Origin: Strigamia acuminata
Taxonomy: Eukaryota > Arthropoda > Chilopoda > Geophilomorpha > Linotaeniidae
Assembly: GCA_949358305.1 (NCBI GenBank)
Contig: OX442322.1
Location: forward strand, 9,858,001-9,922,000
Reading direction: 5' to 3'
DNA length: 64,000 nucleotides
The translations under genes and the position numbers were made by a program. Shown in pieces: positions 4,739 through 56,156 of this stretch (its first letter is position 1; each line of letters begins with the position of its first letter). The notes below the pieces were generated by a model. That model searched no databases, was not told the origin of the DNA, and saw only the letters and a list, made by a program, of their open reading frames with translations.

Positions 4739-7106
4739 CTAGTCCAGCTCCAAAGCCCTTACGTGTTTGACCGAGCGTCGATATTCCTTTCCATTGGCTG
4801 TAACCACTCTCACGACGCGCACAAAACCATCTTCGCCTGGTAGGACTTCGATGACCCGTGCCAGCGGCCAGAAGTACGGATTGCAGCCGACCTTTTCTAG
4901 CAAGACTATCTGGTCGACTTCCGGATTCTTGAAACGGGAGTCGCCCTTGACTTCATGAAAATTTCTTAGCTGTTTCAGGTAACTCTCGCGCCAAATCCGC
5001 CAGAACTCCCAAACGAAAAGTTGTCTTTTTCTATCCAATCTCCGTAGGTCTTTCTTCTCTATCGCGTGCAGTGGACGGTTGATAACCCACTTGGGCATTC
5101 CTCCAGTGAGAAAGTTCTCAGGGCTGAGAATTCTCCCGCCGTCAACCTCCTCATGTACGTAAGACAGGGGCCTTGAGTTAAGCACGGAGCTTATCTCGAC
5201 GGCTAGCGTCTGAAGCGTCTCCAAGTCTACAGTCCTACGCAGCAGCATCTTACGTAGTTTATCTTTCACCGAACGCACAAGTCTCTCCCAGGCTCCTCCA
5301 GCCCAAGGTGACAATGGTGGGATGAACGACCAAACCACTCTCTTCTCCGAAAGGAACGTCCGGATCCCATCCTTGGTCAGCAATTTACCCCACGACTGTA
5401 TCTCCTGGCTTCCTCGCTCGAAAGTTTTGGAGTTGTCGGAGAACACTTTCGCCGGGTACCCAAATCTGGCGCCGAAACGACGGAAGGCCAGAAGGAACTT
5501 TTCCACCGAAAGGTTCTCAGAGACTTCCAAATGGATCGCTCGTGTTACTAGGCAGGTAAACAACAGAATATAGACTTTTCTTCCTTTCTCCTTATGCTTG
5601 ACTGTGAGAGGGCCGAGGTGGTCAATTCCTGTATGCTGGAACGGGGCTGCCGGCGTGACGCGCTCCATAGGAGGGTCACCAGTGGCTGGGTTATTTCGTT
5701 CCAACCGCTCTCGTTTGCAGACCAAGCAACTCCGGATCACAGCCTTGACCGTTCGGCGTCCTCTTACAATCCAATACTTGTCTCTCAACCGGTAAAACGT
5801 CTCACTTAGCTCACCATGCAGGAGCTGCAAGTGAACCTTCTTGATGATTAGTCTTGTTACCCAACTATCCGGGTGTAAAATGATGGGAAATACCTCGTCA
5901 AAGGGAAGCGCTGACTTCCCTAGACGGCTCCTTAGTCTTAGTAAATCTCTCTCATCCAGAAAAATGTCGAAATTTTTCAGGATAGAGCCCTTTGCCACTT
6001 TCTCTTTCAACATTGCGGCTTGTCTTTCGTCTGGAAAACTCAAGACCTGAGCCAAGCGGATGACTCTTTCCTCGGCAACTTCTATCTCGAGAACCTCGAG
6101 GTCCCTCCCGCGGGCGAAAAAAGGAAGCCAGCGCCGCATGAGCGCGAAAACTCGCACGAGGCGATTAAAACTACTAAATCGCTTGAAAACCTCGCACATA
6201 TGCGCTTCTCCATCTGACGCAACCAAAGCTACCTTTTCCTTTTTTGCCTCTTCCATTGGGAGGTCAACGTCCTCAGGTTCGTCCGCGAGGTCTTCCAACT
6301 GACCGGGCCCGTCCCACCAGAGACGGTTGGCCAAAAGGTTCTTTGCCTCGCATGGGCGTGTCAATACGTCCGCTGGATTCCGGTCCGTCGGGACGTATGC
6401 CCACTGACTCGGACTTGACTTTTCAAGAACTTCTGCCACTCTGTTGGAGACATACGGCTTCCACCTGTTCTTATCAGACTTCAACCACCCGAGCGCAACC
6501 ATTGAGTCCGAGTAATACCTTATCTTCCCAATTGGATAACCTGGTAGGAAATCCTCTAGGATGTACTCCACCATCCGGACTCCAACAACAGTTGCGGTCA
6601 ATTCTAGGCGTGGCAAAGTCAACTTGGTGGTGGGGGCAATTCTGCTTTTGCTCAAGAGCAGTTGGGTCGCGCCTGACGCAGCTCGAACGTAGATCGCGCA
6701 CCCGTACGCTTGTGGACTTGCGTCGCAAAAGACGTCAATGTCCATTTCTTGGCCCGAGTACGTCCCCATCCAACGCTTCACCCGGGCTTCGGTGAGGCGC
6801 TGAAGATCGGCGTACCATTTTGTCACTATCTCTCGGTTCTCTTCGGAGATTATGTCGTCCCATTTGATGTCGCGACCCCACATACTCTGTAAAAGTAGCT
6901 TCATCCGCAAAATGACTGGAGCTATCAACCCCAAGGGGTCGAAGACTGATGCCAATAATGACAGAATGCCCCTCCTTGACTGGGGAATCTCAACACCGGT
7001 CGGGATCCTGAACATTAGCGTATCATCTTGGACGCTCCAAAGGATGCCCAGCATCTTGACAACTCCTAGATCTTCAAACTTGTCTGCACGCATGTGGAAA
7101 TCCTTG
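4739..7106 (-). pseudogene. B1: truncated BEL/Pao pol (RT end, RNase H, integrase)
   Basis: This is an open frame on the minus strand, most similar to the C polyprotein. It starts at the RT segment KDFHMRAD (just after the missing YMDD palm motif). RNase H follows with CDAS near 6724, YYSDSM and NPADV. The integrase has an HHCC zinc-binding region (HLQLLHGELSE ... CLVC) and the catalytic core with TGIDHLGPL, VFSDNSKTF and WERLVRSVK, then a C-terminal tail ending ALELD and a TAG at 4739-4741. Gag, protease and most of RT are absent, because family-A LTR sequence joins at 7106/7107 and the remainder does not reappear in the window. Reading upstream into the LTR extends the frame by about 22 codons of LTR sequence, which are not part of the protein. 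Confidence 0.9.
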
Positions 7107-7880
7107 TGTTGCGAGCACGCGCAACATGGATTTTTTGCTATCGCAATAGCGGATTTGCTTGAATTGATCAATTATTTAAGTTTGTGTTTAGTTAATAGTG
7201 CAGCTTAAGTTTTGGCTAAATGTTAAATGAATTTCGTGTAGTTTGTGACGTGGGAGTTATGTTTTACCTGATTTAAGCTGTCTTTCTTAAGGTAATCTTG
7301 TATTTTTCCTTTGATTCTTTGGAGTTTTACTGCTTGGATTCGTCCGAAGAGTTGCTGTTGTTAGTTCCTAAGTTAGTTCATTTATTTGAAACACTTTGGC
7401 TTAATGTATTACGGTTTTGTGCCTTTTGTAATGATTTTATACTTGAAACTGTGTATTTTCTTGTATACGCTTTATCATTTTGTCACTAGAGGGACAATTT
7501 GCCTCTTGCGAGTGATTGTTGCCACTCGTTGCTAAGAGCCGCTGCTCTCATTGTTGTAGGTTGCGCAGCAACTACACTGTGACTGTTATGTAGATTTCTA
7601 GGGTTAAGATATGTAATTTTCTCCTCTCTTTTCTGTGTACTTTTGATAGATATTAACTTTACATTAAATTCGGTTTGTTTATGTGTTATTTGGCATATTA
7701 GTGGTGAGTTCTTCCAGACACTTATTAGGCCACTTTGCAGGGATTTCAAGCAGGATTTCTCCTGCAATGCATCATCTCTTTTGGAGCTCATCACAAGTTC
7801 TAGTAAGTAGGTTTATTTGTTATAAGCTTTTTCTGTTGTCTTCTAGAGTGCCACACGGCCACAAAGCATTGCTAGAAACA
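7107..7880 (+). repeat. Family-A LTR 1
   Basis: This 774-bp LTR runs from TGTTGCGAGCACGC to TAGAAACA. The first 20 nt can fold on themselves (TGTTGC with GCAACA). It is nearly identical to the LTR at 12212-12985 over the first ~710 bp, but its last ~70 bp differ. The left flank is the B1 pol. Confidence 0.9.
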
Positions 7881-14188: not shown

Positions 14189-15154
14189 TGTTTCGAGCAA
14201 CAGAAAGGAGGAAAGAGAGACCACAACTGCTCGTCAATTTGATAGTAGTTTGATTTTATGTGTTCGAAAATGTAAAGAAGAGTTACTAATTTCGGTCTTA
14301 TAATTGTATTATTTATTTAGCAAATATCTAATCTTTTTCTGTTGTAATAGGAATTTTACATGTCTTTTTTGTGTGCCAATTTTCAGTAAAGACAATGTTT
14401 GTTAGGTATTTTATCTCTTAGAATGACAAGGTCAAGGTTTAGGAATTTTTAGTCTTGTTTTCCAATGTTTTCATGCTATGTTTACCTATTTCTAAGTCTT
14501 GTCCTGTTCCCAGTTCAGTTGTGAAGGCGGAATGACGGGTTTGAAGCATCTGAGTTGCTTTAAAGGTGCATTGGAAAAGAAGGAATTGTTAATTTTGTAA
14601 TGGATTGCAATTAATGCATTTTTACAGTGTATTTGACTTGCTTTAGATGCGTTATTTGCATATTTAGTTAAGTTTATTCCTATTCTATTTGTTATAATTC
14701 TTTCCAATGATTTCTGTTAATTTTAGTTGATTTTATCTCTATTATGAGGCACAATGCAAGCTTTAACTTATGTTATTTATGAATTTAGTCACTAGGTGCC
14801 TCATGAATTTGTTGTTGCTATAGAATTGTTGTTGTTATGAAGTTGTTACACTCTTGTTATGAAGAATTAGATGTTGTTAAGTTAAATTTGCCTCCATGTT
14901 AATGTTTTGAAATGATTAAAAGCATTATCTGGATTTTTCTACACAAAGCTTTATTTTATTCAACATCCAACATGTGTGAGTAGGGAGATTTAACCCCAAA
15001 CTCCCTGGAGCAGCTTCCTTCAAGAGCAAGGGCAGAAACTCAAGTTACTACACTTCTCCTCTCAGCTAAGCAAAGTATAGGCCTATGGGAAATTTGCCAA
15101 TAATTCCCCACCGCGTTACAACTCGTCGCATCACGGCAGTGGCGAGTTGCAACA
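14189..15154 (+). repeat. TK-element LTR 1
   Basis: A 966-bp LTR from TGTTTCGAGCAACAG to GAGTTGCAACA. It carries the variants AATCTTTTTCTG, GTTAGGTATT and GTTTTCATGC shared with LTR 2. Its last ~280 bp (from GATGTTGTTAAG) differ clearly from LTRs 2 and 3. Confidence 0.93.
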
Positions 15155-15158
15155 TTTT

Positions 15159-15178
15159 TGGTACCGTGACCCAAGGAT
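15159..15178 (+). promoter_or_regulatory. Primer binding site, tRNA-His-like
   Basis: TGGTACCGTGACCC then AAGGATT lies 4 nt after the LTR. It differs from the tRNA-His complement by G to A at position 5 and by a small insertion. The second copy has the same site at 20365. Confidence 0.6.
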
Positions 15179-15580
15179 TTTGTTGTTGCCAACCAGGATT
15201 TTCGTCCAGTTTTTCCAGTGGATTTCAGTGCACGTCATTGCATTTTTAGCCAGGTGTGTGACGTTGATTTCACGGTGATTTGCGTGTGTGTTCCCAGCTT
15301 CACAGTGAGGCAGTGTGTGGCATCTAGTTCGCAGTAAGCAGTGTGGGGTGCCGATTTTCGTGGTGTGAAGTGTGTGGCGACGCGTTTTTCGATTTATTTC
15401 CACTGGATTATTGTCGCCAATTGCGACAGAAGTGTGTTTGTGCTGTGTCGTCCTTCGCAGGCGTCAGGGAGTTGATTCGTCAGTGGATTTTATGTCAAGT
15501 GTAACGAGTTCGGAGTCTTTCTACTGTGGCGGTCAACATAAGGAGACAAGCAAGCGATTTCCTGGTCAACAATTTGAGAA

Positions 15581-15594
15581 ACACAACGCAATGT
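15581..15594 (+). promoter_or_regulatory. Conserved leader motif ACACAACGCAATGT
   Basis: An exact copy of the cross-family motif, 422 nt downstream of the primer site. Confidence 0.6.
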
Positions 15595-15783
15595 CAATCT
15601 TCAAGTTCATCTGCTGATGATAAAGAACAAGATTAATTTTAACTCAATTGCTGTTAGAATTTAAGAATTATATTTATTTAAATTAATTCTTTATCTGATT
15701 TTTCAAGGAAGTTTCTGCCAATTTCGAGCTGTGTTTGGGGAGTTTAAAAGGGGTTTTTTATGTCAATAATTTTAAACATCAAG

Positions 15784-15990
15784 TTATTATCTCTTAAGTG
15801 CGGAGCTATTGTATATGATAGCTAATTATCTCTTTTGTGCAGCGCTATTATAAACTATAGCTATTATCTCTTTTTGTGCGGGGTTATTGTAAAATATAAC
15901 TATTTATCTCTTTGTGCGGGGTTATTGTAAAATATAACTATTTATCTCCTTTGTGCAGTGTTATTGTAAAAGATAACTATTTATCTCGGT
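15784..15990 (+). repeat. Tandem hairpin array, five units
   Basis: Five units of about 38-41 bp follow the pattern TTATCTC...TGTGC...stem-8 nt loop-stem. The stems are at 15804-15823 (AGCTAT/ATAGCT), 15844-15861 (GCTAT/ATAGC), 15883-15900, 15921-15938 and 15960-15977 (all GTTAT/ATAAC). The stem sequence changes on both sides together between units 1-2 and 3-5, as expected for a selected RNA structure. The array recurs in the second copy. Confidence 0.75.
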
Positions 15991-16323
15991 TGTGCGGTTA
16001 GATATTAATTATTAATTTCGAACTAAGTGCATTTTGGGGGAATTATCAAGATATTTATGCGGATAAGTTTATTTGTGCGGTCAATAATTCCGTCCCAGTG
16101 TATTACGTATAGTGTGTTAAGTCAATTTGTCTGTAGTATTCCGGAGTTGAGTTTAGCATTTTATTTCGAGGTCGTTTTTCATTTGCACACCGCATTTGAA
16201 TTAACGTTAAGCAAGTATAAGTAAGAGTCTGTGAAGTTCGGAGAATATTTGTGGGAATTTAATTCGCAGTTATTGAGTTGTTGAATAGAATTTTTATTCT
16301 CATTCTCTCTTTCTCGAGAATAA

Positions 16324-19311
16324 ATGGCAACTGCGGCTGGTTTGACCACGGAAGCAGCGGAAGAGAAAGAAACACAATGGCAAGCCAAGGCCCAAGGAGC
16401 AGAGGATCTGCTCTCGACATCTGCAAACGTTCTCGACGGGGGTGAGCTTGAAGCTCTCCACGCAACAATAGATGCGCAGTTGAGTGACCTTATTGATGAG
16501 CTCGCTGTCTTTAAAGACAAGATAGAACGTTCAGATTACCTGCTTAGTTTGAGACGTCTCGAAGACATTAGGACTAAGGTCAATCTTCTTAAGCAAAGGA
16601 CGAAATTTTCAAAACAGATGCAGGATAAGTTTGGGGCCCATCCAGGCGGAAATACGCTAATGAATTCTGGATTTCTGAACAACTCATCAATCATATCACG
16701 GAAGACTACAAAGCTTCCAAAGCTGACTCTTCAGAAATTTGACGGGAATCCGATGGAGTATAAGAGCTTCATGGATATGTTTTCAACCACAGTTGACGCC
16801 GATGCCGAGTTATCGAACGTCGAAAAACTTCAATATCTTAAATCAAGCTGTATCGGGGAAGCGGAAGTGGCAATCAAGTCGTACCCACTTACTAACGATT
16901 CGTATTTAATGGCACTTAGCAGTTTAGAAGGACTTTTTGGGTCAGAAGTAGCCCAAAAGAACGCTCTGGCGAGGAAAATTCGTGAAGCCGAAGCAGTTAA
17001 AGATTTGTACCCAATCCAGCCGGTAAAATCTCTATTGACGTCCCTCACCGGTGCTTTCCGAACATTAGAACAGTTGAAGTTCCCAGTTACGACTACTGGA
17101 TTATTTCTAATCCCGGAATTATTGCGGAAGTTTCCACCGGAATTGGGAAGACGATTTCATAGGATTTACAAAGGAAACGTAGAAAACGTTAATTTATTTC
17201 TCGAATTTGTAGCAAGCGAAGTCAGAGTAGCAGAATTATCAGACGATAGCGTATTTACCAGTCAGAAAGTCACCAAGAAAAGTGAGAAACCAGCAACTAG
17301 AGAGCAAAAAGAAGAATTACGAGGGACCATGTCATCTTGCGCGGTTGCGCAAAATACGTCATTCGGGTCCAATACGAAAGAATCATTCAAACCAAAATCA
17401 GGTCCAGTCCGGAAATTGATCTGTGCCTTCTGTGAAGGAGATCATTTTAACAATAATTGCGACGCAAATCTGGAAGTTTCGGAGAAATACGACATCGTTA
17501 AGCGAAAACGTCTATGCTTTAATTGCCTGAGACCAAGCCATACAGTGGGTAACTGCCCTGTAAAATTTTGTTGCCGATCATGCGGTGGTCGACACCATTC
17601 TTCAATTTGTAACAGAGGTCATGCGGAAAAGCCAACTGATACCAAAGAAGAGAACGTCTCCGCCAACGTCTCGTTGTCGGTCTCAAGTGACGTCCAGCTA
17701 ATGGTTTTCACAGCATTGTTCGTCCGAAAGAGTGGCGAAACAATCCCAGTTCGTGGATTACTCGATCCGGGTAGTCATCGTTCATATATTACGAAGCGGT
17801 TAGCAAAGAAATTACACCTAAACAAGATTGAGACGTATCACACCATGACCCAGTGTCTGCTGAACAAGGAACCAGTTCCTACAACTCATGACGTGTTTAG
17901 ATTCGAGTTGCAGTCTCGTCACGACAAGCAGAAAGTGTCTGTATTTGCTCTTGATACCGACACACTTCCCAATATAAAGGGAGTGGTAGATCACCAGACG
18001 CTGCAACAAATCAAGTCGTTTAATCTTGAGATGGCAGAACCACATCCCTCCGTGTCGGATGAGGTAGATGTCTTGATCGGAAGCGGAGCATGGTGGAAAA
18101 TAATTCAAGCGGGAACGAAGAGAATTAGTCCAGATTTAGGAATGATGAAAACAGTTTTTGGATGGATTTTAAACGGACAAATTAACTCAAAAGAGCCTTC
18201 CATCTACAAAGACGATATCTCACTGGGAGATGTATCGTGTATGGCGATCGATTCTGGAAAGAAGATGACTTTCAACACTTCAAAAAAGGACAAAGGCGGG
18301 TTTGGACAGGCGAATTCCACATCAATGCCCGACGAGAAAAGCGAAAAGGGTGGAGTACGAGCAAAAGGCGTCATCGCTTCTCGTTTTGCCGCGAGCCGCT
18401 CTAGCGAGCTGGAGGTACGGCATCCTGACGTCCCCATCGAATTGGAAATGGATGGAAAGCGGACGTTTAAAGGGATAAGGTCGGGCAAGATGGCGATTTC
18501 TCAGAGTCCTGACACACTGGAGTCTACGGAAAAGAAAGGAGAATTTCCGAAAAATTTCAAAAAAGATGAAGAAAAGGGTTTAAGTAAATGGAGGAAGATA
18601 TTGAAATGGAGTCGCAAGAAACTCACCAATTCGCACAGAAGATCAAATGCAGTCACAAAGGCCACGGGAAATATACATTTAGTAATTGGCCCAATGTTTT
18701 CTGGAAAAACTACTGCTTTACTTAATGTAATCCGAAATGAAGAAGAAAACTCTTGCCTGCTTGTTAAGCATTTGACAGACGTTAGATATAGTAAAGATGA
18801 AATGGTTAGCCACACCGGACAACGACGTCCAGCGGTTCGGGTCGCGTCGTTACAGGAAATCAAGAAAATTGCGGAGTCGGTCAAGACGATAGGTATCGAC
18901 GAAGGGCAATTTTTCGGAGACATCGATTCGTTTTCCGACAAAATGGCGAACGAAGGAAAGAATGTAATAATTGCCGCTTTAAATGGTGATTTTAAGAGAC
19001 AGGAATTCAAGGCAGTATCTAATCTCATTCCACTAGCGGAAACTATTGTCAAACTTCATGCCAAATGCCACTTTTGTGGAAACCAAGCGTCATTCACCAA
19101 ACGAATATCGGGCGAAACGCAAGTTCAGGTTGTAGGAGGAGAGGAGAAATACAAGCCGACATGTCGTACCTGTTTTCAGAAATCAATCAATTCTATAGAA
19201 GTCAAGAGAAAGCTAATTAATGGAGCGGCACATTTAAGTTTAGCGATTTTGAATCGAAGATTACCTCCATGGGTGGCCAGTTTGATCCGCAAAAAATTGC
19301 GCTTACCTTAA
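16324..19311 (+). CDS. Gag-protease-thymidine kinase polyprotein, copy 1
   Basis: A 995-residue single frame. Residues ~1-120 are a polar, helical-looking Gag N-terminus. Residues ~130-290 are the BEL Gag region (LPKLTLQKFDGNPMEYKSF, resembling DUF1759). Zinc knuckles start near C367, C398 and C417. The retropepsin-like domain has LLDPGSHRSYI (active-site D481) and runs to about 626. A polar, lysine-rich linker (~630-783) follows. Residues 784 to about 955 form a type II thymidine kinase: P-loop GPMFSGKTT 789-797, KHLTDVRYS, SHTGQ, DEGQFF 859-864 with the likely catalytic Glu860, a structural zinc site C915/C918/C947/C950, and lasso-like residues FTKR and GGEEKY. A basic 40-residue tail ends the protein. 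The kinase family phosphorylates thymidine to dTMP, so supplying dTTP for reverse transcription is a plausible role, but that is inference. No RT, RNase H or integrase is present. The start chosen is the first ATG after the leader, with G at +4. Confidence 0.95.
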   Translation: MATAAGLTTEAAEEKETQWQAKAQGAEDLLSTSANVLDGGELEALHATIDAQLSDLIDELAVFKDKIERSDYLLSLRRLEDIRTKVNLLKQRTKFSKQMQDKFGAHPGGNTLMNSGFLNNSSIISRKTTKLPKLTLQKFDGNPMEYKSFMDMFSTTVDADAELSNVEKLQYLKSSCIGEAEVAIKSYPLTNDSYLMALSSLEGLFGSEVAQKNALARKIREAEAVKDLYPIQPVKSLLTSLTGAFRTLEQLKFPVTTTGLFLIPELLRKFPPELGRRFHRIYKGNVENVNLFLEFVASEVRVAELSDDSVFTSQKVTKKSEKPATREQKEELRGTMSSCAVAQNTSFGSNTKESFKPKSGPVRKLICAFCEGDHFNNNCDANLEVSEKYDIVKRKRLCFNCLRPSHTVGNCPVKFCCRSCGGRHHSSICNRGHAEKPTDTKEENVSANVSLSVSSDVQLMVFTALFVRKSGETIPVRGLLDPGSHRSYITKRLAKKLHLNKIETYHTMTQCLLNKEPVPTTHDVFRFELQSRHDKQKVSVFALDTDTLPNIKGVVDHQTLQQIKSFNLEMAEPHPSVSDEVDVLIGSGAWWKIIQAGTKRISPDLGMMKTVFGWILNGQINSKEPSIYKDDISLGDVSCMAIDSGKKMTFNTSKKDKGGFGQANSTSMPDEKSEKGGVRAKGVIASRFAASRSSELEVRHPDVPIELEMDGKRTFKGIRSGKMAISQSPDTLESTEKKGEFPKNFKKDEEKGLSKWRKILKWSRKKLTNSHRRSNAVTKATGNIHLVIGPMFSGKTTALLNVIRNEEENSCLLVKHLTDVRYSKDEMVSHTGQRRPAVRVASLQEIKKIAESVKTIGIDEGQFFGDIDSFSDKMANEGKNVIIAALNGDFKRQEFKAVSNLIPLAETIVKLHAKCHFCGNQASFTKRISGETQVQVVGGEEKYKPTCRTCFQKSINSIEVKRKLINGAAHLSLAILNRRLPPWVASLIRKKLRLP

Positions 19312-19404
19312 GGAGTCATTAGGGAGCTGATCCTAGGTGGATGAGAAGTTTTCAGATTGCTAAGAGGTTCTTCTTCACCTTCTTTTCTTTTCGGCGGCAA
19401 TCTC
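19312..19404 (+). promoter_or_regulatory. TK element 1 3' end: pyrimidine tract and GGCGGCA
   Basis: The sequence directly before the LTR is CTTCTTTTCTTTTCGGCGG followed by CAATCTC. It is rich in pyrimidines, not purines, as in the other families here. The same 93 bp recur at 24519-24611. Confidence 0.6.
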
Positions 19405-20360
19405 TGTTTCGAGCAACAGAAAGGAGGAAAGAGAGACCACAACTGCTCGTCAATTTGATAGTAGTTTGATTTTATGTGTTCGAAAATGTAAAGAAGAGTT
19501 ACTAATTTCGGTCTTATAATTGTATTATTTATTTAGCAAATATCTAATCTTTTTCTGTTGTAATAGGAATTTTACATGTCTTTTTTGTGTGCCAATTTTC
19601 AGTAAAGACAATGTTTGTTAGGTATTTTATCTCTTAGAATGACAAGGTCAAGGTTTAGGAATTTTTAGTCTTGTTTTCCAATGTTTTCATGCTATGTTTA
19701 CCTATTTCTAAGTCTTGTCCTGTTCCCAGTTCAGTTGTGAAGGCGGAATGACGGGTTTGAAGCATCTGAGTTGCTTTAAAGGTGCATTGGAAAAGAAGGA
19801 ATTGTTAATTTTGTAATGGATTGCAATTAATGCATTTTTACAGTGTATTTGACTTGCTTTAGATGCGTTATTTGCATATTTAGTTAAGTTTATTCCTATT
19901 CTATTTGTTATAATTCTTTCCAATGATTTCTGTTAATTTTAGTTGATTTTATCTCTATTATGAGGCACAATGCAAGCTTTAACTTATGTTATTTATGAAT
20001 TTAGTCACTAGGTGCCTCATGAATTTGTTGTTGCTATAGAATTGTTGTTGTTATGAAGTTGTTACACTCTTGTTATGAAGAATTAGATGTAGTTAAGTTG
20101 AATTTGCCTCCATGTTAATGTTTTGAAATGATTAAAAGCATTATCTGGATTTTTCTACACAAAGGTTTATTTTATTCAACATCCAACATGTGTGAGTAGG
20201 GAGATTTAACCCCAAACTCCCTGGAGCAGCTCCCCACAAGATCCAGTGCAGAAACTCAAGTCAACTCATTTCTCCTCTCAGTATAGGCCTATGGGAAATT
20301 TGCCAAGAATTCCCCATCGCGTTACAACTCGTCGCATCACGGCAGTGGCGAGTTGCAACA
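19405..20360 (+). repeat. TK-element LTR 2 (middle, mosaic)
   Basis: A 956-bp LTR. Its 5' part has the LTR-1 states at three sites where LTR 3 differs. From GATGTAGTTAAGTTG (about 20085) to the end it has the LTR-3 states, including the 3' block GCAGCTCCCCACAAGATCC. The switch lies between about 19690 and 20085. Confidence 0.93.
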
Positions 20361-20786
20361 TTTTTGGTACCGTGACCCAAGGATTTTGTTGTTGCCAACC
20401 AGGATTTTTGTCCAGTTCTTCCAGTGGATTTCAGTGCACGTCATTGCATTTTTAGCCAGGTGTGTGACGTCAATTTCACGGTGATTTGCGTGTGTGTTCC
20501 CGACTTCACAGTGAGGCAGTGTGTGGCATCTAGTTCGCAGTAAGCAGTGTGGGGTGCCGATTTTCGTGGTGTGAAGTGTGTGGCGACGCGTTTTTCGATT
20601 TATTTCCACTGGATTATTGTCGCCAATTGCGACAGAAGTGTGTTTGTGCTGTGTCGTCCTTCGCAGGCGTCAGGGAGTTGATTCGTCAGTGGATTTTATG
20701 TCAAGTGTAACGAGTTCGGAGTCTTTCTACTGTGGCGGTCAACATAAGGAGACAAGCAAGCGATTTCCTGGTCCACAATTTGAGAA

Positions 20787-20800
20787 ACACAACGCAATGT
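20787..20800 (+). promoter_or_regulatory. Conserved leader motif ACACAACGCAATGT
   Basis: An exact copy of the cross-family motif in the second TK element. Confidence 0.6.
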
Positions 20801-20989
20801 CAATCTTCAAGTTCATCTGCTGATGATAAAGAACAAGATTAATTTTAATTCAATTGCTGTTAGAATTTAAGAATTATATTTATTTAAATTAATTCTTTAT
20901 CTGATTTTTCAAGGAAGTTTCTGCCAATTTCGAGCTGTGTTTGGGGAGTTTAAAAGGGGTTTTTTATGTCAATAATTTTAAACATCAAG

Positions 20990-21196
20990 TTATTATCTCT
21001 TAAGTGCGGAGCTATTGTATATGATAGCTAATTATCTCTTTTGTGCAGCGCTATTATAAACTATAGCTATTATCTCTTTTTGTGCGGGGTTATTGTAAAA
21101 TATAACTATTTATCTCTTTGTGCGGGGTTATTGTAAAATATAACTATTTATCTCCTTTGTGCAGTGTTATTGTAAAAGATAACTATTTATCTCGGT
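20990..21196 (+). repeat. Tandem hairpin array, five units (copy 2)
   Basis: The same five-unit array as in copy 1, offset by 5206 bp. All five stems are preserved. Confidence 0.75.
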
Positions 21197-21530
21197 TGTG
21201 CGGTTAGATATTAATTATTAATTTCGAACTAAGTGCATTTTGGGGGAATTATCAAGATATTTATGCGGATAAGTCAATTTGTGCGGTCAATAATTCCGTC
21301 CCATTGTATTACGTATAGTGTGTTAAGTCAATTTGTCTGTGGCATTTCAGAGTTGAGTTTAGCAATTTATTTCGAGGTCGTTTTTCATTTGCACACCGCA
21401 TTTGAATTAACGCTAAGCAAGTATAAGTGAGAGTCTGTGAAGTTCGGAGAATATTTCGTGGGGATTTAATTAGCAGTGATTGAGTTGTTGAATAGAATTT
21501 TTATTCTCATTCTCTCTTTCTCGAGAATAA

Positions 21531-24518
21531 ATGGCAACTGCAGCTGGATTGACCGCGGAAGCAGCGGAAGAGAAAGAAACACAATGGCAAGCCAAGGCCC
21601 AAGGAGCAGAGGATCTGCTCTTGACATCTGCAAACGTTCTCGACGGGGGTGAGCTTGAAGCTCTCCACGCAACAATAGATGCGCAGTTGAGTGACCTTAT
21701 TGATGAGCTCGCTGTCTTTAAAGACAAGATAGAACGTTCAGATTACCTGCTTAGTTTGAGACGTCTCGAAGACATTAGGACTAAGGTCAATCTTCTTAAG
21801 CAAAGGACGAAATTTTCAAAACAGATGCAGGATAAGTTTGGGGCACATCCCGGCGGAAATACGCTAATGAATTCTGGATTTCTGAACAACTCATCGATAA
21901 TCTCAAGGAAGACTACAAAGCTTCCAAAGCTGACATTGCAGAAATTCGACGGGAATCCGATGGAGTATAAGAGCTTCATGGATATGTTTTCAACCACAGT
22001 TGACGCCGATGCCGAGTTATCGAACGTCGAAAAACTTCAATACCTGAAATCAAGTTGTATCGGGGAAGCGGAAGTGGCAATCAAGTCGTACCCACTTACT
22101 AACGATTCGTATTTAATGGCACTTAGTAGCTTAGAAGGACTTTTTGGGTCAGAAGTAGCCCAAAAGAACGCTCTGGCGAGGAAAATTCGTGAAGCCGAAG
22201 CAGTTAAAGATTTGTACCCAATCAAGCCAGTAAAATCTCTATTGACGTCCCTCACCGGTGCTTTCCGAACATTAGAACAGTTGAAGTTCCCAGTTACGAC
22301 TACTGGATTATTTCTAATCCCGGAACTATTGCGGAAGTTTCCACCGGAATTGGGAAGACGATTTCATAGGATTTACAAAGGAAACGTGGAAAACGTTAAT
22401 TTATTTCTCGAATTTGTAGCAAGCGAAGTCAGAGAAGCAGAATTATCAGACGATAGCGTATTTACCAGTCAGAAAGTCACCAAGAAGAGTGAGAAACCAG
22501 CAACTAGAGAGCAAAAAGAAGAATTACGAGGGACCATGTCATCTTGCGCGGTTGCGCAAAATACGTCATTCGGGTCCAATACGAAAGAATTATTCAAACC
22601 AAAATCAGGTCCAGTCCGGAAATTGATCTGTGCCTTCTGTGAAGGAGATCATTTCAACAATAATTGCGACGCAAATCTGGAAGTTTCGGAGAAATACGAC
22701 ATCGTTAAGCGAAAACGTCTATGCTTTAATTGCCTGAGACCAAGCCATACAGTGGGTAACTGCCCTGTGAAATTTTGTTGCCGATCATGCGGTGGTCGAC
22801 ACCATTCTTCAATTTGTAACAGAGGTCATGCGGAAAAGCCAACTGATACCAAAGAAGAGAACGTCTCCGCCAACGTCTCGTTGTCGGTCTCAAGTGACGT
22901 CCAGCTAATGGTTTTCACCGCATTGTTCGTCCGAAAGAGTGGCGAAACAATCCCAGTTCGTGGATTACTCGATCCGGGTAGTCATCGTTCATATATTACG
23001 AAGCGGTTAGCAAAGAAATTACACCTAAACAAGATTGAGACGTATCACACCATGACCCAGTGTCTGCTGAATAAAGAACCAGTTCCTACAACTCATGACG
23101 TGTTTCGATTCGAGTTGCAGTCTCGTCACGACAAGCAGAAAGTGTCTGTATTTGCTCTTGATACCGACACACTTCCCAATATAAAGGGAGTGGTAGATCA
23201 CCAGACGCTGCAACAAATCAAGTCGTTTAATCTTGAGATGGCAGAACCACATCCCTCCGTGTCGGATGAGGTAGATGTCTTGATCGGAAGCGGAGCATGG
23301 TGGAAAATAATTCAAGCGGGAACGAAGAGAATTAGTCCAGAATTAGGAATGATGAAAACAGTTTTTGGATGGATTTTAAACGGACAAATTAACTCAAAAG
23401 AGCCTTCCATCTACAAAGACGATATCTCACTGGGAGATGTATCGTGTATGGCGATCGATTCTGGAAAGAAGATGACTTTCAACACTTCAAAAAAGGACAA
23501 AGGCGGGTTTGGACAGGCGAATTCCACATCAATGTCCGACGAGAAAAGCGAAAAGGGTGGAGTACGAGCAAAAGGCGTCATCGCTTCTCGTTTTGCCGCG
23601 AGCCGCTCTAGCGAGCTGGAGGTACGGCATCCTGACGTCCCCATCGAATTGGAAATGGATGGAAAGCGGACGTTTAAAGGGATAAGGTCGGGCAAGATGG
23701 CGATTTCTCAGAGTCCTGACACACTGGAGTCTACGGAAAAGAAAGGAGAATTTCCGAAAAATTTCAAAAAAGATGAAGAAAAGGGTTTAAGTAAATGGAG
23801 AAAGATATTGAAATGGAGTCGCAAGAAACTCACCAATTCGCACAGAAGATCAAATGCAGTCACAAAGGCCACGGGAAATATACATTTAGTAATTGGCCCA
23901 ATGTTTTCTGGAAAAACTACTGCTTTACTTAATGTAATCCGAAATGAAGAAGAAAATTCTTGCCTGCTTGTTAAGCATTTGACAGACGTTAGATATAGTA
24001 AAGATGAAATGGTTAGCCACACCGGACAACGACGTCCAGCAGTTCGGGTCGCGTCGTTACAGGAAATCAAGAAAATTGCGGAGTCGGTCAAGACGATAGG
24101 TATCGACGAAGGGCAATTTTTCGGAGACATCGATTCGTTTTCCGACGAAATGGCGAACGAAGAAAAGAATGTAATAATTGCCGCTTTAAATGGTGATTTT
24201 AAGAGACAGGAATTCAAGGCAGTATCTAATCTCATTCCACTAGCGGAAACTATTGTCAAACTTCATGCCAAATGCCACTTTTGTGGAAACCAAGCGTCGT
24301 TCACCAAACGAATATCGGGTGAAACGCAAGTTCAGGTTGTGGGAGGAGAAGAGAGATACAAGCCAACGTGTCGTACCTGTTTTCAGAAATCAATCAATTC
24401 TATAGAAGTCAAGAGAAAGCTAATTAATGGAGCGGCACATTTAAGTTTAGCGATTTTGAATCGAAGATTACCTCCATGGGTGGCCAGTTTGATCCGCAAA
24501 AAATTGCGCTTACCTTAA
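21531..24518 (+). CDS. Gag-protease-thymidine kinase polyprotein, copy 2
   Basis: A 995-residue single frame with the same domain order as copy 1. By eye it differs at 10 residues: T9A, S31L, then Q to K, V to E, S to L, D to E and P to S across Gag, protease and linker, and K to E, G to E and K to R in the kinase. The P-loop, DEGQFF, both CxxC pairs, the three zinc knuckles and the protease DPG are unchanged. In the kinase segment I count 8 silent and 3 replacement differences between the copies. That pattern suggests the kinase was kept under purifying selection while the two lineages diverged. RT, RNase H and integrase are again absent, so mobility would need proteins from a relative. Confidence 0.95.
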   Translation: MATAAGLTAEAAEEKETQWQAKAQGAEDLLLTSANVLDGGELEALHATIDAQLSDLIDELAVFKDKIERSDYLLSLRRLEDIRTKVNLLKQRTKFSKQMQDKFGAHPGGNTLMNSGFLNNSSIISRKTTKLPKLTLQKFDGNPMEYKSFMDMFSTTVDADAELSNVEKLQYLKSSCIGEAEVAIKSYPLTNDSYLMALSSLEGLFGSEVAQKNALARKIREAEAVKDLYPIKPVKSLLTSLTGAFRTLEQLKFPVTTTGLFLIPELLRKFPPELGRRFHRIYKGNVENVNLFLEFVASEVREAELSDDSVFTSQKVTKKSEKPATREQKEELRGTMSSCAVAQNTSFGSNTKELFKPKSGPVRKLICAFCEGDHFNNNCDANLEVSEKYDIVKRKRLCFNCLRPSHTVGNCPVKFCCRSCGGRHHSSICNRGHAEKPTDTKEENVSANVSLSVSSDVQLMVFTALFVRKSGETIPVRGLLDPGSHRSYITKRLAKKLHLNKIETYHTMTQCLLNKEPVPTTHDVFRFELQSRHDKQKVSVFALDTDTLPNIKGVVDHQTLQQIKSFNLEMAEPHPSVSDEVDVLIGSGAWWKIIQAGTKRISPELGMMKTVFGWILNGQINSKEPSIYKDDISLGDVSCMAIDSGKKMTFNTSKKDKGGFGQANSTSMSDEKSEKGGVRAKGVIASRFAASRSSELEVRHPDVPIELEMDGKRTFKGIRSGKMAISQSPDTLESTEKKGEFPKNFKKDEEKGLSKWRKILKWSRKKLTNSHRRSNAVTKATGNIHLVIGPMFSGKTTALLNVIRNEEENSCLLVKHLTDVRYSKDEMVSHTGQRRPAVRVASLQEIKKIAESVKTIGIDEGQFFGDIDSFSDEMANEEKNVIIAALNGDFKRQEFKAVSNLIPLAETIVKLHAKCHFCGNQASFTKRISGETQVQVVGGEERYKPTCRTCFQKSINSIEVKRKLINGAAHLSLAILNRRLPPWVASLIRKKLRLP

Positions 24519-24611
24519 GGAGTCATTAGGGAGCTGATCCTAGGTGGATGAGAAGTTTTCAGATTGCTAAGAGGTTCTTCTTCACCTTCTTTTCTTTTCG
24601 GCGGCAATCTC

Positions 24612-25567
24612 TGTTTCGAGCAACAGAAAGGAGGAAAGAGAGACCACAACTGCTCGTCAATTTGATAGTAGTTTGATTTTATGTGTTCGAAAATGTAAAG
24701 AAGAGTTACTAATTTCGGTCTTATAATTGTATTATTTATTTAGCAAATATCTAATTTTTTTCTGTTGTAATAGGAATTTTACATGTCTTTTTTGTGTGCC
24801 AATTTTCAGTAAAGACAATGTTTGTTAGATATTTTATCTCTTAGAATGACAAGGTCAAGGTTTAGGAATTTTTAGTCTTGTTTTCCAATGTTTTTCTGCT
24901 ATGTTTACCTATTTCTAAGTCTTGTCCTGTTCCCAGTTCAGTTGTGAAGGCGGAATGACGGGTTTGAAGCATCTGAGTTGCTTTAAAGGTGCATTGGAAA
25001 AGAAGGAATTGTTAATTTTGTAATGGATTGCAATTAATGCATTTTTACAGTGTATTTGACTTGCTTTAGATGCGTTATTTGCATATTTAGTTAAGTTTAT
25101 TCCTATTCTATTTGTTATAATTCTTTCCAATGATTTCTGTTAATTTTAGTTGATTTTATCTCTATTATGAGGCACAATGCAAGCTTTAACTTATGTTATT
25201 TATGAATTTAGTCACTAGGTGCCTCATGAATTTGTTGTTGCTATAGAATTGTTGTTGTTATGAAGTTGTTACACTCTTGTTATGAAGAATTAGATGTAGT
25301 TAAGTTGAATTTGCCTCCATGTTAATGTTTTGAAATGATTAAAAGCATTATCTGGATTTTTCTACACAAAGGTTTATTTTATTCAACATCCAACATGTGT
25401 GAGTAGGGAGATTTAACCCCAAACTCCCTGGAGCAGCTCCCCACAAGATCCAGTGCAGAAACTCAAGTCAACTCATTTCTCCTCTCAGTATAGGCCTATG
25501 GGAAATTTGCCAAGAATTCCCCATCGCGTTACAACTCGTCGCATCACGGCAGTGGCGAGTTGCAACA
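24612..25567 (+). repeat. TK-element LTR 3
   Basis: A 956-bp LTR. Private variants in its 5' part (AATTTTTTTCTG, GTTAGATATT, GTTTTTCTGC) separate it from LTRs 1 and 2, while its 3' third matches LTR 2. The right flank, GTGGTGTTGG, is family-A interior 2. Confidence 0.93.
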
Positions 25568-30690: not shown

Positions 30691-31964
30691 TGTTGCGAGC
30701 AGGAACGCAACAAAAAGATTTAGAAGTTTTCCACGTTTTGGCTTCTGAAAAGAAGATTTGACTTTTTAATTTGCTTTTTAGTTTTTGACACAAGTTGGAG
30801 ACATATCTGAGATGTCCGGTTGTTTGGCTGACCAGCGGTCTTGTTTGGTGATGTCCTTGACGGTCGTCATGCTGCCAGTCGCACCTGGATTGGTCGGGAG
30901 ATGTGTTGTCGGTCACTTGTGGTCGTTTTGATGTGATCGTTTTAGTGGTTTAGTAATTCTGTGTATTAGTTTAAGAATTATTAGAGTTGTTTTGAGATAG
31001 GCATATTTTATTTGATTGTTGTTTACCTTTTGCTTGATGTTTTAGGGGGTCAGCGACTTTCCAAGACGTGAGGCAGCAGGTGGCGAGCGGCGTAAAGCTC
31101 CCGTGACAGTTGACGGCATTTGGACGCATCGGATCCGCGTGTGTGTCTAGAGCGGCGTCGATACGCCTTGGTTTGGACTCTCGTTCGAGTCCCCACGCTG
31201 TTTGGAAGGTCCTTGCGTCGATGTCTGGTCAAGGGCGGCTATGGAAGTCTGTCTGGCTCGCTCCTGTTCGCCTGCACAGCTGTTAGCAAGTTGCTGTGCC
31301 GCCATCTTGCATGATGAGCGGTTGGCTTTTGTCTTTGAGAAGGGAAGTTGGCTTTCCTCTGGAACTAAGAATGGGAATTGTTAATACTTGTTTATTTATG
31401 TATTTTATGCCTCTAATAGATGTTAAGTTTAAGCTTTTATTACTTGTTATCAATTTGATGTAAAAGGGGTAAGTTTGAGACACTTAGCGCCCTCTTTGGA
31501 GGCAATAAGTTATTTATAATGAGTAATTGTCATTTGTAGTTAAGCCTATTTTTTAGCGCCATTGTTCACGGTTGCTAGGCGCTTGTTGTTGCTAGGTTGA
31601 GAGTGAGTTACTGTTGTTACTAGCTGTTGCTAGAAGAAGCTTGTTATGGTTGATTTAGAATAAATAAGTTGTTATTCTTTTCTCTTTCTTTGATGTTCTT
31701 CCTTTGGATTATTTCTGAAATGAGTTCCCAGAGAATGAGTGAGTAGAGAGCCAAGCTGACTCTCCTCCTCCTTGAAGACACATTTGCTGGCCCATTAGCT
31801 GAGATGTTTCTCCCATCTGATCTACTGTTTGAGAACTAGGCCTAATGCTAGGCCTAACGCTTTCTGCTGCTGGAATTTCTACTATACGATCATGGATGCG
31901 CAACAGGACAGTTGCCTATGAATGTACCACGCAACTTCCGAGTTCGACATGTCTGTTTGCAACA
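30691..31964 (+). repeat. C 5' LTR
   Basis: It runs from TGTTGCGAGCAGGAAC to TGTTTGCAACA. The first 22 nt form an inverted repeat (TGTTGC/GCAACA). It contains GCCGCCATCTTG (31298-31309), GTAAGT (31469-31474), a possible splice donor, and AATAAA (31659-31664). Confidence 0.94.
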
Positions 31965-31980
31965 GGGGAAGTTGGTTTTT

Positions 31981-32001
31981 TGGTGCCGTGACCCGGATTC
32001 G
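31981..32001 (+). promoter_or_regulatory. Primer binding site, tRNA-His
   Basis: TGGTGCCGTGACCCGGATTC matches the complement of a vertebrate-type tRNA-His 3' end with one mismatch. It is 16 nt after the LTR rather than adjacent to it. Confidence 0.75.
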
Positions 32002-32182
32002 TGCGCGTTTGATCACCGTGCGTGAAGCTAGAGTTTGGCCACTTCACAGACGATTCAGGGGATTTGTGCCAACAGGACGGTTTGTGCAGTTAGCGGCTGG
32101 TTCCGCATGTATTTCCGATCAAGTTTGTGCAGCTGAGAATCGTCTAGAAGCGACCATCAATGCCAGGGGTCCAGATCAAGTG

Positions 32183-32196
32183 ACACAACGCAATGT
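32183..32196 (+). promoter_or_regulatory. Conserved leader motif ACACAACGCAATGT
   Basis: An exact copy of the motif, about 202 nt downstream of the primer site. Confidence 0.6.
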
Positions 32197-32767
32197 GCAG
32201 CAGTTCGCCATGTTTTTGAAGATGACATTCAGTTGTTTCTTTGTGATTTTGATGGGTTTTGCTTTGGGTTTTTATTTGTGTCCTTTTTGGGGGAGATATG
32301 AGTCTTGCTATTGCATTTTAAGTGATATAAAATAAGTTTTGGCTCTACTATAACTGCATAAGCAGGAGAGCAACAGATTTAGCTAGAATAGTCTATAGTT
32401 TGCATGATTTTTAGTGGAATTCTTGTGAACAGGGATTATTTAAGTTCTCTTAGAGCATTTATTTGTAAACAGAAGCAGTTTACTTGTAATTTTAGAAGAG
32501 AGTTAGTCAGTCTGAGTATTTACATTCTCAGAATTGTTAGGGATTTATTCTAAAAAGGTTTCAGTTGAGATTTTGAGTGAGTCTGTGATTCAACCACTCA
32601 AATTATTTTAGAAATCCTCTTGGAGTTTGTCTGTATAGCAGAGAGTTTGGGTGTTTAAGCACTCAGATTCTAAAGGTTCGTCTTAAGTTTAACGTGTGTG
32701 TTGTGTGTTGGTGTAAGGTGACCGTAGTAATTGTCTTTGCTTTCCAACCTTTTCAGGTGCGATCAGC

Positions 32768-35700
32768 ATGTCTACGTCACCAGGAAGAACCTCACCTACA
32801 CCGGTTACAATTCCTAAGCCGGATGAGTTGGACGTTTTGACCTCTCGATTTGAGACGGTTGGGGTCGCAGTTGAGGAGTTGTTGAAGGAATCAAAGGCCA
32901 TTACCGATCCTGCAGAGCTAGAAGCAACTGCTTTAGCCGCAGAGGAACAGATTAAGAAGATGGTTGATGACCTGAACCTGATGCAACCACTGATACCCAG
33001 AGATCAGTACATGACCAACCTTAAGGAGATTGAGGGTTATTACACGCCTATGGCAGTGTTGAAGCACCGTAGCCAAGTGGCGCAACGATTTGTGTCGCAT
33101 TGGACAGCAAATGCGTCGACGTTGTCTGCCAGTACAAGCCAGAATCAGACTAATGTTTCACAACAAAGTAGTCTTTCACAATTAGCGCGAAGAAATCGCA
33201 ACGCTAAACTTCCAAAGTTGGAGATAGCAAAGTTTGGTGGAGAAGTTGTTGAGTTCAAGTCCTTTTTGGATCGATTTGACTCAACAGTGCACACAAACTC
33301 AGACCTCTCGGAAGTAGAGAAGCTGCAATACCTGCAGTCATTCTGCACAGGTGAAGCAGCAACGCTAATATCCACCTTTAGACAAGTGGATGGATCCTAC
33401 GACTTAGCTCGTAGTGAATTGATTCGAAGTTATGGGGACGACGAAGCGCAGCGAGCAGCTTTGCTCAAGTCTCTTAAGGAATTGAAACCAATCACAGAAG
33501 TACACCCTGTCAAGGCGGTGAAGGCGCAACTTACAAAGTTGTCTGCAACCATTAGGGTGCTTGAGCAGTTAAGTGTTCCTGTTCAGACAGCGGGATTTCT
33601 TTTAGCACCTGACGTGTTGAGGAAGTTCCCGCCGATTATGGTCACTCAGTTTTACAGATCCCATGGAACCAAATCCTCAAATTTATTGACGATTTTGGAC
33701 TTTTTTGCCACAGAAGTTAAGCTTCTAGAGCAAGTAGAAGACGTTATGGGATCCAATCTCCTTCACATTAAGAAGGACAAGGTCGATAAGAGCGACCAAA
33801 AAGAGCAACGAAAAGGGACAATGTCCACTTGTGCATTGGCTCAAGGGACAAAGAGCTCGAGTAATCCCAAGTTGACAGTCGATAAAGCGACTTGCATTTT
33901 TTGCAAAGAAGGGCACGCTAACTCCTTTTGCAAAAAAGAGATTAGCGTTGAGGACAAGTCTGCCATTGCGCAAAAGAATCGGCTTTGCTACAATTGTCTG
34001 CAAAGCGGACATATGGCCATTAGATGCCGATTGAAGACGTCTTGTAAGACGTGCGGTGGTCGACACCACTCCAGCATTTGCAGGAAGTCAATCGTTACGA
34101 GTCCAGGTGGGGCAGAGAAGCCTAAGGACGTTAGTGCTAACGTTTCCTTGGCGATCTCGTCAACGCTCCAATTGATGATTTTTACAGCGGAATTAAAGAC
34201 GAAATCTGGTGGTTCGCACACGGTACGTGGGATGTTAGATCCTGGAAGTCACCGTTCTTATATTCTTAAGAGCGTAGCTGACCGGATACGGCTGAAGAGT
34301 TGTGGGTCAATAGAGGCCACAGCCCAACGTCTCAATGAGGAGAACGCAGGGTCAACGTCTTATGACGTATATAAAGTCTTGCTTCAGTCTCGACACGGAG
34401 CCAAAGAGCTCAAGGTGACAGCTTTAAGCGCAAAGAGCTTACCCCATGTGTATGGGATAGCCAGCCCAGATGTTATTCAGAAAGTTAAGAATTTGGGGTT
34501 TGAATTGGCTGAGGACTTACCTTCAACTGCAGGCAATGTTGATATCTTGCTTGGCGTTGATGTCTGGTGGGAAATCTGCTTGGATGGACGCAAACGCCTG
34601 GATAGTCGACTGGGTTTGGTGAACACCATCTTTGGGTGGGTGTTATCAGGAGCAGCTGGGTCGACTGATGTCTTCTCAGAGAGCTCGCGCGACGTTTCTT
34701 GCTGCAACACCTGTGATATTAAAACAGACCGAGACTTGGAGAAGCTATGGAGTTTAGAAGCCGTTGGTATTAGTGCCGGCGAGCGTGATTCCGATTTCAT
34801 TAGAGATCGTTTCGAGAAAACAAAGACAAGAAGAGAAGATGGTCGTTATGAAGTTTGCTTACCTTTCAATGAGCGAATTGGTTCGTTGGAATCCAATTGG
34901 GATTTGGCATTGAATCAGTTGTCGCACACGTTGAGAAGGATTGACAGCAGCAGTGACCACAAAGAACGTTACCACAAAGCCATGTGGGACTACGTGCGCG
35001 AAGAGCACGCAGAAGTAGTACCTCTTGCAGAAAGATACAAGAAGTCTGGCGTTTATGTTATTCCGCACCATCCAGTGATTAGGGAGGATAGGGATACAAC
35101 GAAGTTTAGAGTAGTTTTTAACGCGTCGTCTTCAAAGAAAGGAGTTCCTTCTTTAAACGACTGCTTATACCCTGGTCCGAGCCTTAATCCGGACATTGTG
35201 CCAGTAATTGTTCGTTTCCGACTTTACTGTGTGGTTGCGATAGCGGACATTAAACAAGCCTTTCTTCAGGTATTGATTAAGTTAGAACACTGCGATTACT
35301 TAAGATTTTTGTGGGTTTCCGACGAATATTTTCAGAACGAATATTCATGGCAAAACTTATGGGACCATTTGGTTGTGTTACGGATGATAGTTGTGCCTTT
35401 CGGTGTCAACTCATCCCCGTTTTTGCTCTGCGTGGTTATTCGAGTGCAGGGGCGTCTATATTTAGTCCTTTTTCCGAAGGAAGCAGACGCCCTGGACAAG
35501 GGAATCTACATGGATGACCTGACGTCCGGCGACGATAACGCTGCAAAGACGACGCAACATTGCGTGAATTTACGAACTATTCTAGATGAGGGAAAATTGC
35601 CTCTTGTAAAGTGGGCTACCTCAAGTGCTGAGGTTTTCAACGCGCTTAAGGGAGAAGATTTTCATATGAGAGCAGAGGAATTTAAGGACTTGGACATTAT

Positions 35701-38023: not shown

Positions 38024-38073
38024 AGCGCCGGACCTTTCGGCCGGCTGTTCTCTTCTTTTTCGGCTGGCAGCGA
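38024..38073 (+). promoter_or_regulatory. C pyrimidine tract / GGCTGGCA box before 3' LTR
   Basis: TCTTCTTTTTCGGCTGGC then AGCGA directly abuts the 3' LTR. The canonical polypurine tract is absent. Confidence 0.6.
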
Positions 38074-49934: not shown

Positions 49935-49949
49935 TCGAATAAGAATTTT

Positions 49950-49969
49950 TGGTGCACGTGACCATGGAT
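49950..49969 (+). promoter_or_regulatory. Primer binding site, tRNA-His-like
   Basis: TGGTGC, an extra A, then CGTGACC and GGATT match the tRNA-His complement with an insertion. It lies 15 nt after the LTR. Confidence 0.55.
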
Positions 49970-50179
49970 TTCGTCTGCTTCTTGTGGGTTTTTTCCGGTT
50001 CATCATTTGATACGTTCAACCGTGCGTCTGGTGCGATTGACGGAAATTACGTCTGTGAGTCGTCGTCTGCTAGAATGGTCGTCGTTCAACGTGGCAACAG
50101 CCACAACGGGGATTTATTTGGCGTCGATCACGAACATTTCTGTGCAAGCAACGAGATTCTTCGGTCGACATCTTGGATT

Positions 50180-50193
50180 ACACAACGCGCTGT
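50180..50193 (+). promoter_or_regulatory. Leader motif variant ACACAACGCGCTGT
   Basis: The first nine bases match the cross-family motif exactly; the ATG part is changed. It lies about 230 nt downstream of the primer site. Confidence 0.5.
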
Positions 50194-56098: not shown

Positions 56099-56156
56099 TG
56101 TGTGTTTTGCAGACTTCTCTCATCTCTCTTCTCTCTCTTTCTCGCTGGCAATTCGT
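56099..56156 (+). promoter_or_regulatory. E pyrimidine tract / GCTGGCA before 3' LTR
   Basis: A run of about 35 pyrimidines (TCTCTCTTTCTCGCTGGC, then AATTCGT) lies directly before the 3' LTR, where a polypurine tract is expected. Confidence 0.6.

Follow-up and report, generated by a model that had tools for sequence, protein, structure and literature searches.

Why would a long terminal repeat (LTR) retrotransposon carry a thymidine kinase (TK) at the place where its reverse transcriptase (RT) should stand? The question is raised by 64,000 nucleotides of the Strigamia acuminata genome (GCA_949358305.1, contig OX442322.1, positions 9,858,001 to 9,922,000 of the forward strand), which are referred to here as the window. 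The window contains two BEL/Pao units in tandem at 14189-25567, arranged as LTR-internal region-LTR-internal region-LTR, and both units encode Gag and a putative protease (PR) joined to a type II TK. We consider it rather probable that they belong to an old and recently active non-autonomous BEL/Pao lineage that has captured an animal-type TK in place of Pol and that uses it by the mechanism proposed below.

The Gag-PR-TK protein

The units lie on the forward strand between three LTRs that all begin with TGTTTCG and end with GCAACA. LTR 1 is located at 14189-15154 (966 bp), LTR 2 is common to both units at 19405-20360 (956 bp), and LTR 3 is located at 24612-25567 with 4 differences from LTR 2 over 956 positions. 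In the leader of unit 1 (15155-16323), a 39-bp repeat occurs approximately 5.5 times, at 15786-15997. The primer-binding-site motif TGGTACCGTGACC is found at 15159-15171 in unit 1 and at 20365-20377 in unit 2, so the LTRs and primer site that a preliminary description of the sequence had placed around both frames are present. The frames (16324-19311 and 21531-24518, each of 995 amino acids) are 99% identical.

The preliminary description had read both 995-codon frames as a fusion of BEL Gag, three zinc knuckles and a type II TK, and Pfam agrees for Gag and TK. The Gag domain DUF1759 is found at residues 139-282 (16738-17169 in unit 1) with an E-value of 5e-15, and three CCHC-like knuckles lie at residues 367, 398, and 417 (residues 367-429, 17422-17610). 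A profile check of the kinase region against Pfam TK (PF00265), which had been proposed together with that reading, places the domain at residues 782-951 (18667-19176 in unit 1 and 23874-24383 in unit 2) with an E-value of 8e-55 and a score of 185.8 bits (cut-off 20.6). A putative DPG-type protease is suggested by a DPGSH box at residue 481 (17764-17778 in unit 1), which is also present in two intact BEL elements of the window, F1 and F2; Pfam support is weak, with protease models scoring below their cut-offs (20.8 versus 24.3 and 19.4 versus 22).

The local alignment to the full-length F1 and F2 spans the protease region at 37-38% identity and stops at residue 639. Where the RT would follow, the frame continues with a linker of approximately 140 residues and then the kinase. 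No room is left for Pol because the alignment ends at residue 639 and the stop codon is only 93 nt from the next LTR. The 995-amino-acid frame has no Pfam match to RT, RNase H, or integrase, in line with the reported absence of all three. No hidden Pol was found on either strand of the unit in frames of at least 150 amino acids, antisense frames being covered outside the TK. Lacking BEL-type RT, RNase H, and integrase, the element is a non-autonomous BEL derivative.

By its fold, family and core residues the TK domain appears to be a complete type II thymidine kinase, and activity is predicted. The motifs that had been pointed out earlier are found at residue 789 (GPMFSGKTT), residue 859 (DEGQFF), and residues 915 and 947 (two CxxC pairs, 32 residues apart); we take these to be the P-loop, the site of the catalytic glutamate, and the zinc-binding pairs, respectively. 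The closest sequence match in the PDB is human TK1 (1w4r, 157.7 bits). The AlphaFold2 model of the domain, which was built from 29 aligned sequences, has a mean pLDDT of 87.9. Foldseek aligned it to human TK1 (1xbt_D) with an E-value of 3e-20, TMt of 0.95, TMq of 0.68, and rmsd of 1.4, and it also matches TKs of poxviruses, herpesviruses, and giant viruses.

The genome holds two families of the element, A and B, that are 59% identical in Gag-PR and 57% identical in TK. The BEL TKs of A and B alike retain the P-loop core (GPM..GKT), DEGQFF, the two CxxC pairs, and the GG..[KR]Y loop. The variable point is the GG..KY loop, which reads GG..RY in several family A copies including unit 2 of the window. 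This conservation bears on the possibility that only the kinase fold has been kept, for a non-catalytic role as a zinc-linked oligomer, as an RNA or particle scaffold, or as a means of capturing the Pol of a partner. Type II TKs are tetramers, the TK domain is located where Pol would join Gag, and the AlphaFold2 model has a helical tail after the domain, all of which would suit such a role. A scaffold, however, need not keep GPM[FY][AS]GKT, DEGQFF, and GG..[KR]Y between families that share 57% of their TK residues, and we regard this explanation as improbable.

Copies, selection and origin of the kinase

The preliminary description had made its case depend on other Gag-TK copies with LTRs in the genome, and these are plentiful. 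The genome of 237.5 Mb in 157 contigs, in which one of the six contig ends fetched bears a TTAGG telomere as in arthropods, was searched with PF00265, which gave 205 candidates; 150 were scored and listed, and the counts are a hand tally of those 150. Uninterrupted Gag-TK frames account for 84 of the 150 (32 of 995 amino acids, 5 of 1002, 34 of 1013, and 13 of 1009). The remaining matches are 8 shorter or broken Gag-TK pieces and 58 other TKs. A search with Gag-PR yielded 1268 candidates, 71 of which were scored. A listed TK lies at the expected distance in 64 of these, and the other 7 have frames of 767-991 amino acids without a listed TK. No Gag-Pol element with this Gag is present among the 71, where the longest frame has 1013 amino acids.

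An LTR query gave 101 candidates, and the 40 that were scored include 18 LTR pairs approximately 5.2 kb apart besides LTR 1 and LTR 2 of the window. The two LTRs have equal scores in 15 of the 18 pairs. When 35-base boundaries were compared, a perfect target site duplication (TSD) of 4-5 bp was found in 17 of the 18 copies, and the remaining one has none (GGGA/GAGA). The 18 pairs have 14 distinct flanks, as some are duplicated copies of one insertion. Duplications of 4 bp likewise flank the single copies L021, L022, and L027. The Gag-TK lineage is recently active. An assembly chimera, which had been named as a way in which the reading could fail, or an annotation error might be suspected in a repetitive and satellite-bearing region; this is ruled out by 84 intact copies on many scaffolds, two families, and precise TSDs, and its probability is practically nil.

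Selection was assessed by pairwise Nei-Gojobori dN/dS in nine pairs of the copies fetched. Between the A copy and A' (L002), dN/dS is 0.069 for Gag-PR, 0.402 for the linker, 0.112 for TK, and 0.340 for the tail. In the same order, the values are 0.103, 0.527, 0.159, and 0.244 for B versus C (L021 and L023), and 0.109, 0.616, 0.159, and 0.260 for L020 versus L023. The B subfamilies (L021 and L020) have values of 0.039, 0.665, 0.116, and 1.224, where the tail value comes from 10 changes only. L021 and the Gag piece of L023 have a value of 0.047. Two further pairs are too alike to weigh: the two window units (Gag-PR 0.077, linker 0.275 from 2 changes, TK 0.105) and unit 1 versus L022 (Gag-PR 0.116, TK 0.145 from 3 changes, tail 0.714). 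The two A-versus-B pairs are saturated or nearly so, with linker values of 0.429 and 0.444 and a TK value of 0.118 where one was obtained. In the three informative pairs, the upper 95% bounds for TK are 0.177 (0.112), 0.328 (0.159), and 0.312 (0.116). The TK is under purifying selection, evolving like Gag-PR and unlike the linker, and appears to be kept intact.

The neutral evolution that had been set as an argument against a functional kinase is thus not what was found, and a recent neutral capture of TK is rejected on dN/dS. Transduced pieces of genes are known in LTR elements, and the TK could in principle be an effect-free passenger that was captured recently and amplified with the element. 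The low TK ratios and their upper bounds, together with one TK branch that is common to two diverged families, make such a passenger very unlikely. Another explanation is that the element carries the kinase to the advantage of the host cell, as extra thymidine salvage, and that host selection keeps it. Many TK copies from several repeat families in one genome may mean a general benefit of TK dosage. However, the copies are young, numerous, and fused to a Gag-PR on which purifying selection is also strong, whereas one would expect a gene of benefit to the host to have escaped from the fusion and to be fixed at a single locus. We give this explanation little credence.

The TK tree comprises 36 rows: 12 from this genome, human TK1 as the one other animal TK, 18 of the 80 fetched prokaryote loci, and 5 of the 8 viral-contig loci, with a midpoint root. 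All six BEL TK rows of both families are on one branch (support 98/98), and six other TKs of the genome are on a separate branch (98/98). Human TK1 and one viral-contig row with a long branch group with both of them (95/93). All 18 prokaryote rows and the other four viral-contig rows lie apart from this group. The prokaryote loci are 33-40% identical (80 listed of at least 550) and the eight viral-contig loci 27-39% identical. Of the phylogeny that had been proposed with host and viral TKs, the single BEL TK branch and its position with human TK1 are obtained, from a tree without arthropod or poxvirus TKs, and the donor may have been a host or a virus. A bacterial origin is not favoured given the grouping with human TK1.

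The identities of TK and Gag-PR are in step in three comparisons (80/83%, 57/59%, and 92/93%, respectively). The Gag-TK fusion looks older than the split of A and B, given this parallel divergence. For the same reason, and because the tree unites the BEL TKs on one branch, it is not favoured that A and B each captured a TK separately.

Satellite blocks, candidate enzyme donors and the proposed role

On six long scaffolds, all 72 listed Gag-TK matches are in one block each, covering 10.2 of 131.1 Mb. The blocks, which were drawn after the matches had been seen, are C1 64.2-66.6 Mb, C5 12.2-15.5 Mb, C8 6.8-7.6 Mb, C9 0.3-1.1 Mb, C11 0.1-0.6 Mb, and C13 7.9-10.3 Mb. The other 20 of the 92 Gag-TK matches are on short contigs (18), C4 (one), and C6 (one). 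The spans are far too short for uniform placement (0 of 20000 in five scaffolds and 5 of 20000 in C11), a null that leaves out the segmental duplication that contributes to the clustering, as seen in shared flanks. Among the best 150 of 1068 BEL Pol (PF05380) candidates, 94 are on the six scaffolds and none is inside a block. The separation is not absolute: two C8 matches (6.76 and 6.795 Mb) are just beyond the block edge, and one listed match is on the small contig C63 together with a Gag-TK copy.

A 140-bp satellite abuts the element in L003, L007, L008, L020, L021, and L022 (26.8 copies in L022) and is 2.2 kb away in L019. No such satellite was found in the window, L001, L002, L004, L005, L006, L023, or L027; of these, L001 and L019 represent one copy, and L004 represents that of the window. 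By eye, it is present at 7 of the 14 distinct flanks. Blocks of this kind are possibly centromeric or heterochromatic regions, and we treat them as candidates. The confinement to satellite-bearing blocks, the two old families, and the TK repeats of another lineage go beyond the preliminary description.

The window also contains the intact elements F1 (30691-39347, Gag-Pol of 1751 amino acids at 32768-38020, TSD GAAC) and F2 (48462-57629, Gag-Pol of 1750 amino acids at 50846-56095, TSD GAGG), both on the forward strand. Their LTR pairs differ at 0 of 1275 and 1 of 1473 positions, respectively. F1 and F2 are probably of a different clade from the dispersed BELs among the matches listed because their PF05380 scores (136-139 bits) are below the 164-bit floor of the best 150. 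One Gag-TK copy on C9 interrupts the integrase region of an F2-like element (identity of 93% across 247 aligned amino acids, the first 10 or so in the LTR), and one on C5 sits in a similar 3' Pol region by eye. F1/F2-type BELs are therefore present in the Gag-TK blocks.

F1 and F2 have LTR ends and a primer site that are related to those of the Gag-TK element, and their TSDs of 4 bp compare with 4-5 bp in Gag-TK copies. The sequence TTTTTGGTACCGTGACC follows LTR 1 and LTR 2, and its counterparts are TTTTTTGGTGCCGTGACC in F1 and TTTTTGGTGCACGTGACC in F2. We take TGGTGCCGTGAC to pair with the 3' end of tRNA-His, which the primer-site motif would fit with mismatches. A pyrimidine-rich tract ending in CGGCKGGCA upstream of the 3' LTR is common to the Gag-TK element and F1, with a near form in F2; no plain polypurine tract was seen there. 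The supply of RT and integrase by relatives, as had been suggested, would be the natural reading since the integration signature is like that of intact BELs. F1/F2-type BELs are likely candidates for the enzyme donors.

TK makes dTMP from thymidine, and dUTPase is a nucleotide enzyme that some retroelements carry. In the mechanism that we propose, the Gag-PR-TK precursor would form a particle around its own RNA. The kinase would thereby travel inside the particle or be produced at the site of reverse transcription. Intact BELs of the F1/F2 type would provide RT, RNase H, and integrase in trans, a choice based on the shared compartment and on the resemblance in LTR ends, primer site, and length of the duplication. 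The kinase would convert thymidine to dTMP and raise dTTP where it is limiting, thus feeding reverse transcription and favouring the element that carries it. The supply of dNTPs has been proposed as a limit on retroelements (PMC4982230), and in some retroviruses dUTPase keeps uracil out of viral DNA (PMC3185545).

Several points weigh against this mechanism. The LINE-1 data reported in the same review suggest that something other than dNTP depletion is at work (PMC4982230). The host genome has dNK-family exons, so dTMP could come from the host. The dN/dS values are pairwise on few copies, with a saturated A-B comparison and one frame-broken copy (L023). The Gag-TK element shares with F1 and F2 only LTR ends and short motifs, and its Gag is only 37-38% identical to theirs; hence no close autonomous partner is identified, nor was a close autonomous relative found in the 71 scored of 1268 Gag candidates.

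A broader possibility is a durable two-part system of Pol-less Gag-PR-TK elements and BELs with Pol, living together in a niche that is rich in satellite and possibly centromeric. The Pol-less part would have persisted beyond the old split into families because its captured kinase raises the yield of reverse transcription, perhaps to the benefit of the partner as well. We hold this view only tentatively. For the mechanism favoured here, a Pol-less element that keeps a core-complete kinase past an old family split would be a natural test of the dTTP limit on animal retrotransposition. It would show that an element dependent on the RT of others can be long-lived, and it may be an animal counterpart of the Gag-only elements that occur among the centromeric retrotransposons of plants.

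The element resembles BEL/Pao (Belpaoviridae) in its DUF1759 Gag, three knuckles, putative DPG protease as in F1 and F2, TG...CA LTRs, BEL-like primer site, and short TSD, but has a TK domain instead of RT, RNase H, and integrase. It resembles human TK1 and the TKs of poxviruses and other large DNA viruses in fold, P-loop, DEGQFF, and double CxxC; those kinases are not known to be fused to Gag, whereas here the TK is behind Gag-PR. Plant TR-GAG elements also have LTRs and Gag without Pol (PMC8704663, PMC5818461). One of them transposed in Arabidopsis without its own Pol (PMC8704663), and others occur among the centromeric retrotransposons of Coffea (PMC5818461). The Gag-TK element differs from them as a BEL/Pao element in an animal with a putative protease, a captured enzyme, and two diverged families. 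The Arabidopsis element is reported to be highly similar to a potentially autonomous element, whereas no such close twin of the Gag-TK element was found in the candidates scored. The retroviruses FIV, EIAV, MMTV, and MPMV likewise carry an enzyme of nucleotide metabolism, dUTPase, which in MMTV is in the Gag-Pro protein p30 (PMC3185545); they carry it beside Pol, whereas the kinase here replaces Pol. LTR retrotransposons of bdelloids have captured additional open reading frames, but these are additional to the conserved ones, and TK is not mentioned in the title or the opening of the abstract (PMC5408684). No TK in an LTR retrotransposon is described in the titles and abstract openings of the open-access PMC matches listed, a coverage that does not extend to Repbase and bioRxiv, and no open-access PMC paper joining thymidine kinase and Bel-Pao was found.

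The window tandem and other kinase repeats

The outer ends of the window tandem have no target duplication. The opposite strand of the window holds a relative of the empty site in which 26 bp separate the two flanks. Copy L005 is a single copy with the same left site as the tandem and the duplication CAGG (CCTG on the other strand). From this empty-site relative and L005, the tandem probably consists of two neighbouring insertions approximately 26 bp apart that recombined at an LTR.

Two truncated BEL Pol sequences akin to F1 and F2 are on the minus strand of the window at 1-1929 and 4742-7171, the second with its Pol fragment at 4742-7105 and a continuous frame of 810 amino acids. An LTR pair around this second fragment is rejected, as the flanking repeats are inverted.

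The genome contains other TK repeats. A different single-frame TK of 190 amino acids lies in a dispersed repeat longer than 4.2 kb (L018:4763-5329, L017:4686-5255, and L025:4542-5111). It accounts for 40 of the 150 listed matches, shares approximately 50% of its residues with the BEL TK, and falls on the branch of the other TKs. L009-L014, L024, and L026 have TK frames of 169-269 amino acids in a long shared repeat adjoining tandem repeats, and the frames reach 1118 and 1999 amino acids where the tandem repeats keep them open. Several of these loci are on short contigs or near contig ends and are maybe subtelomeric. A further class of 221 or 239 amino acids has five listed matches and lies beside a minisatellite (L015:4501-5160 and L016:4627-5343). 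At L028:785-1310, direct repeats of approximately 200 bp were seen by eye in the spacer upstream of 5.8S rRNA.

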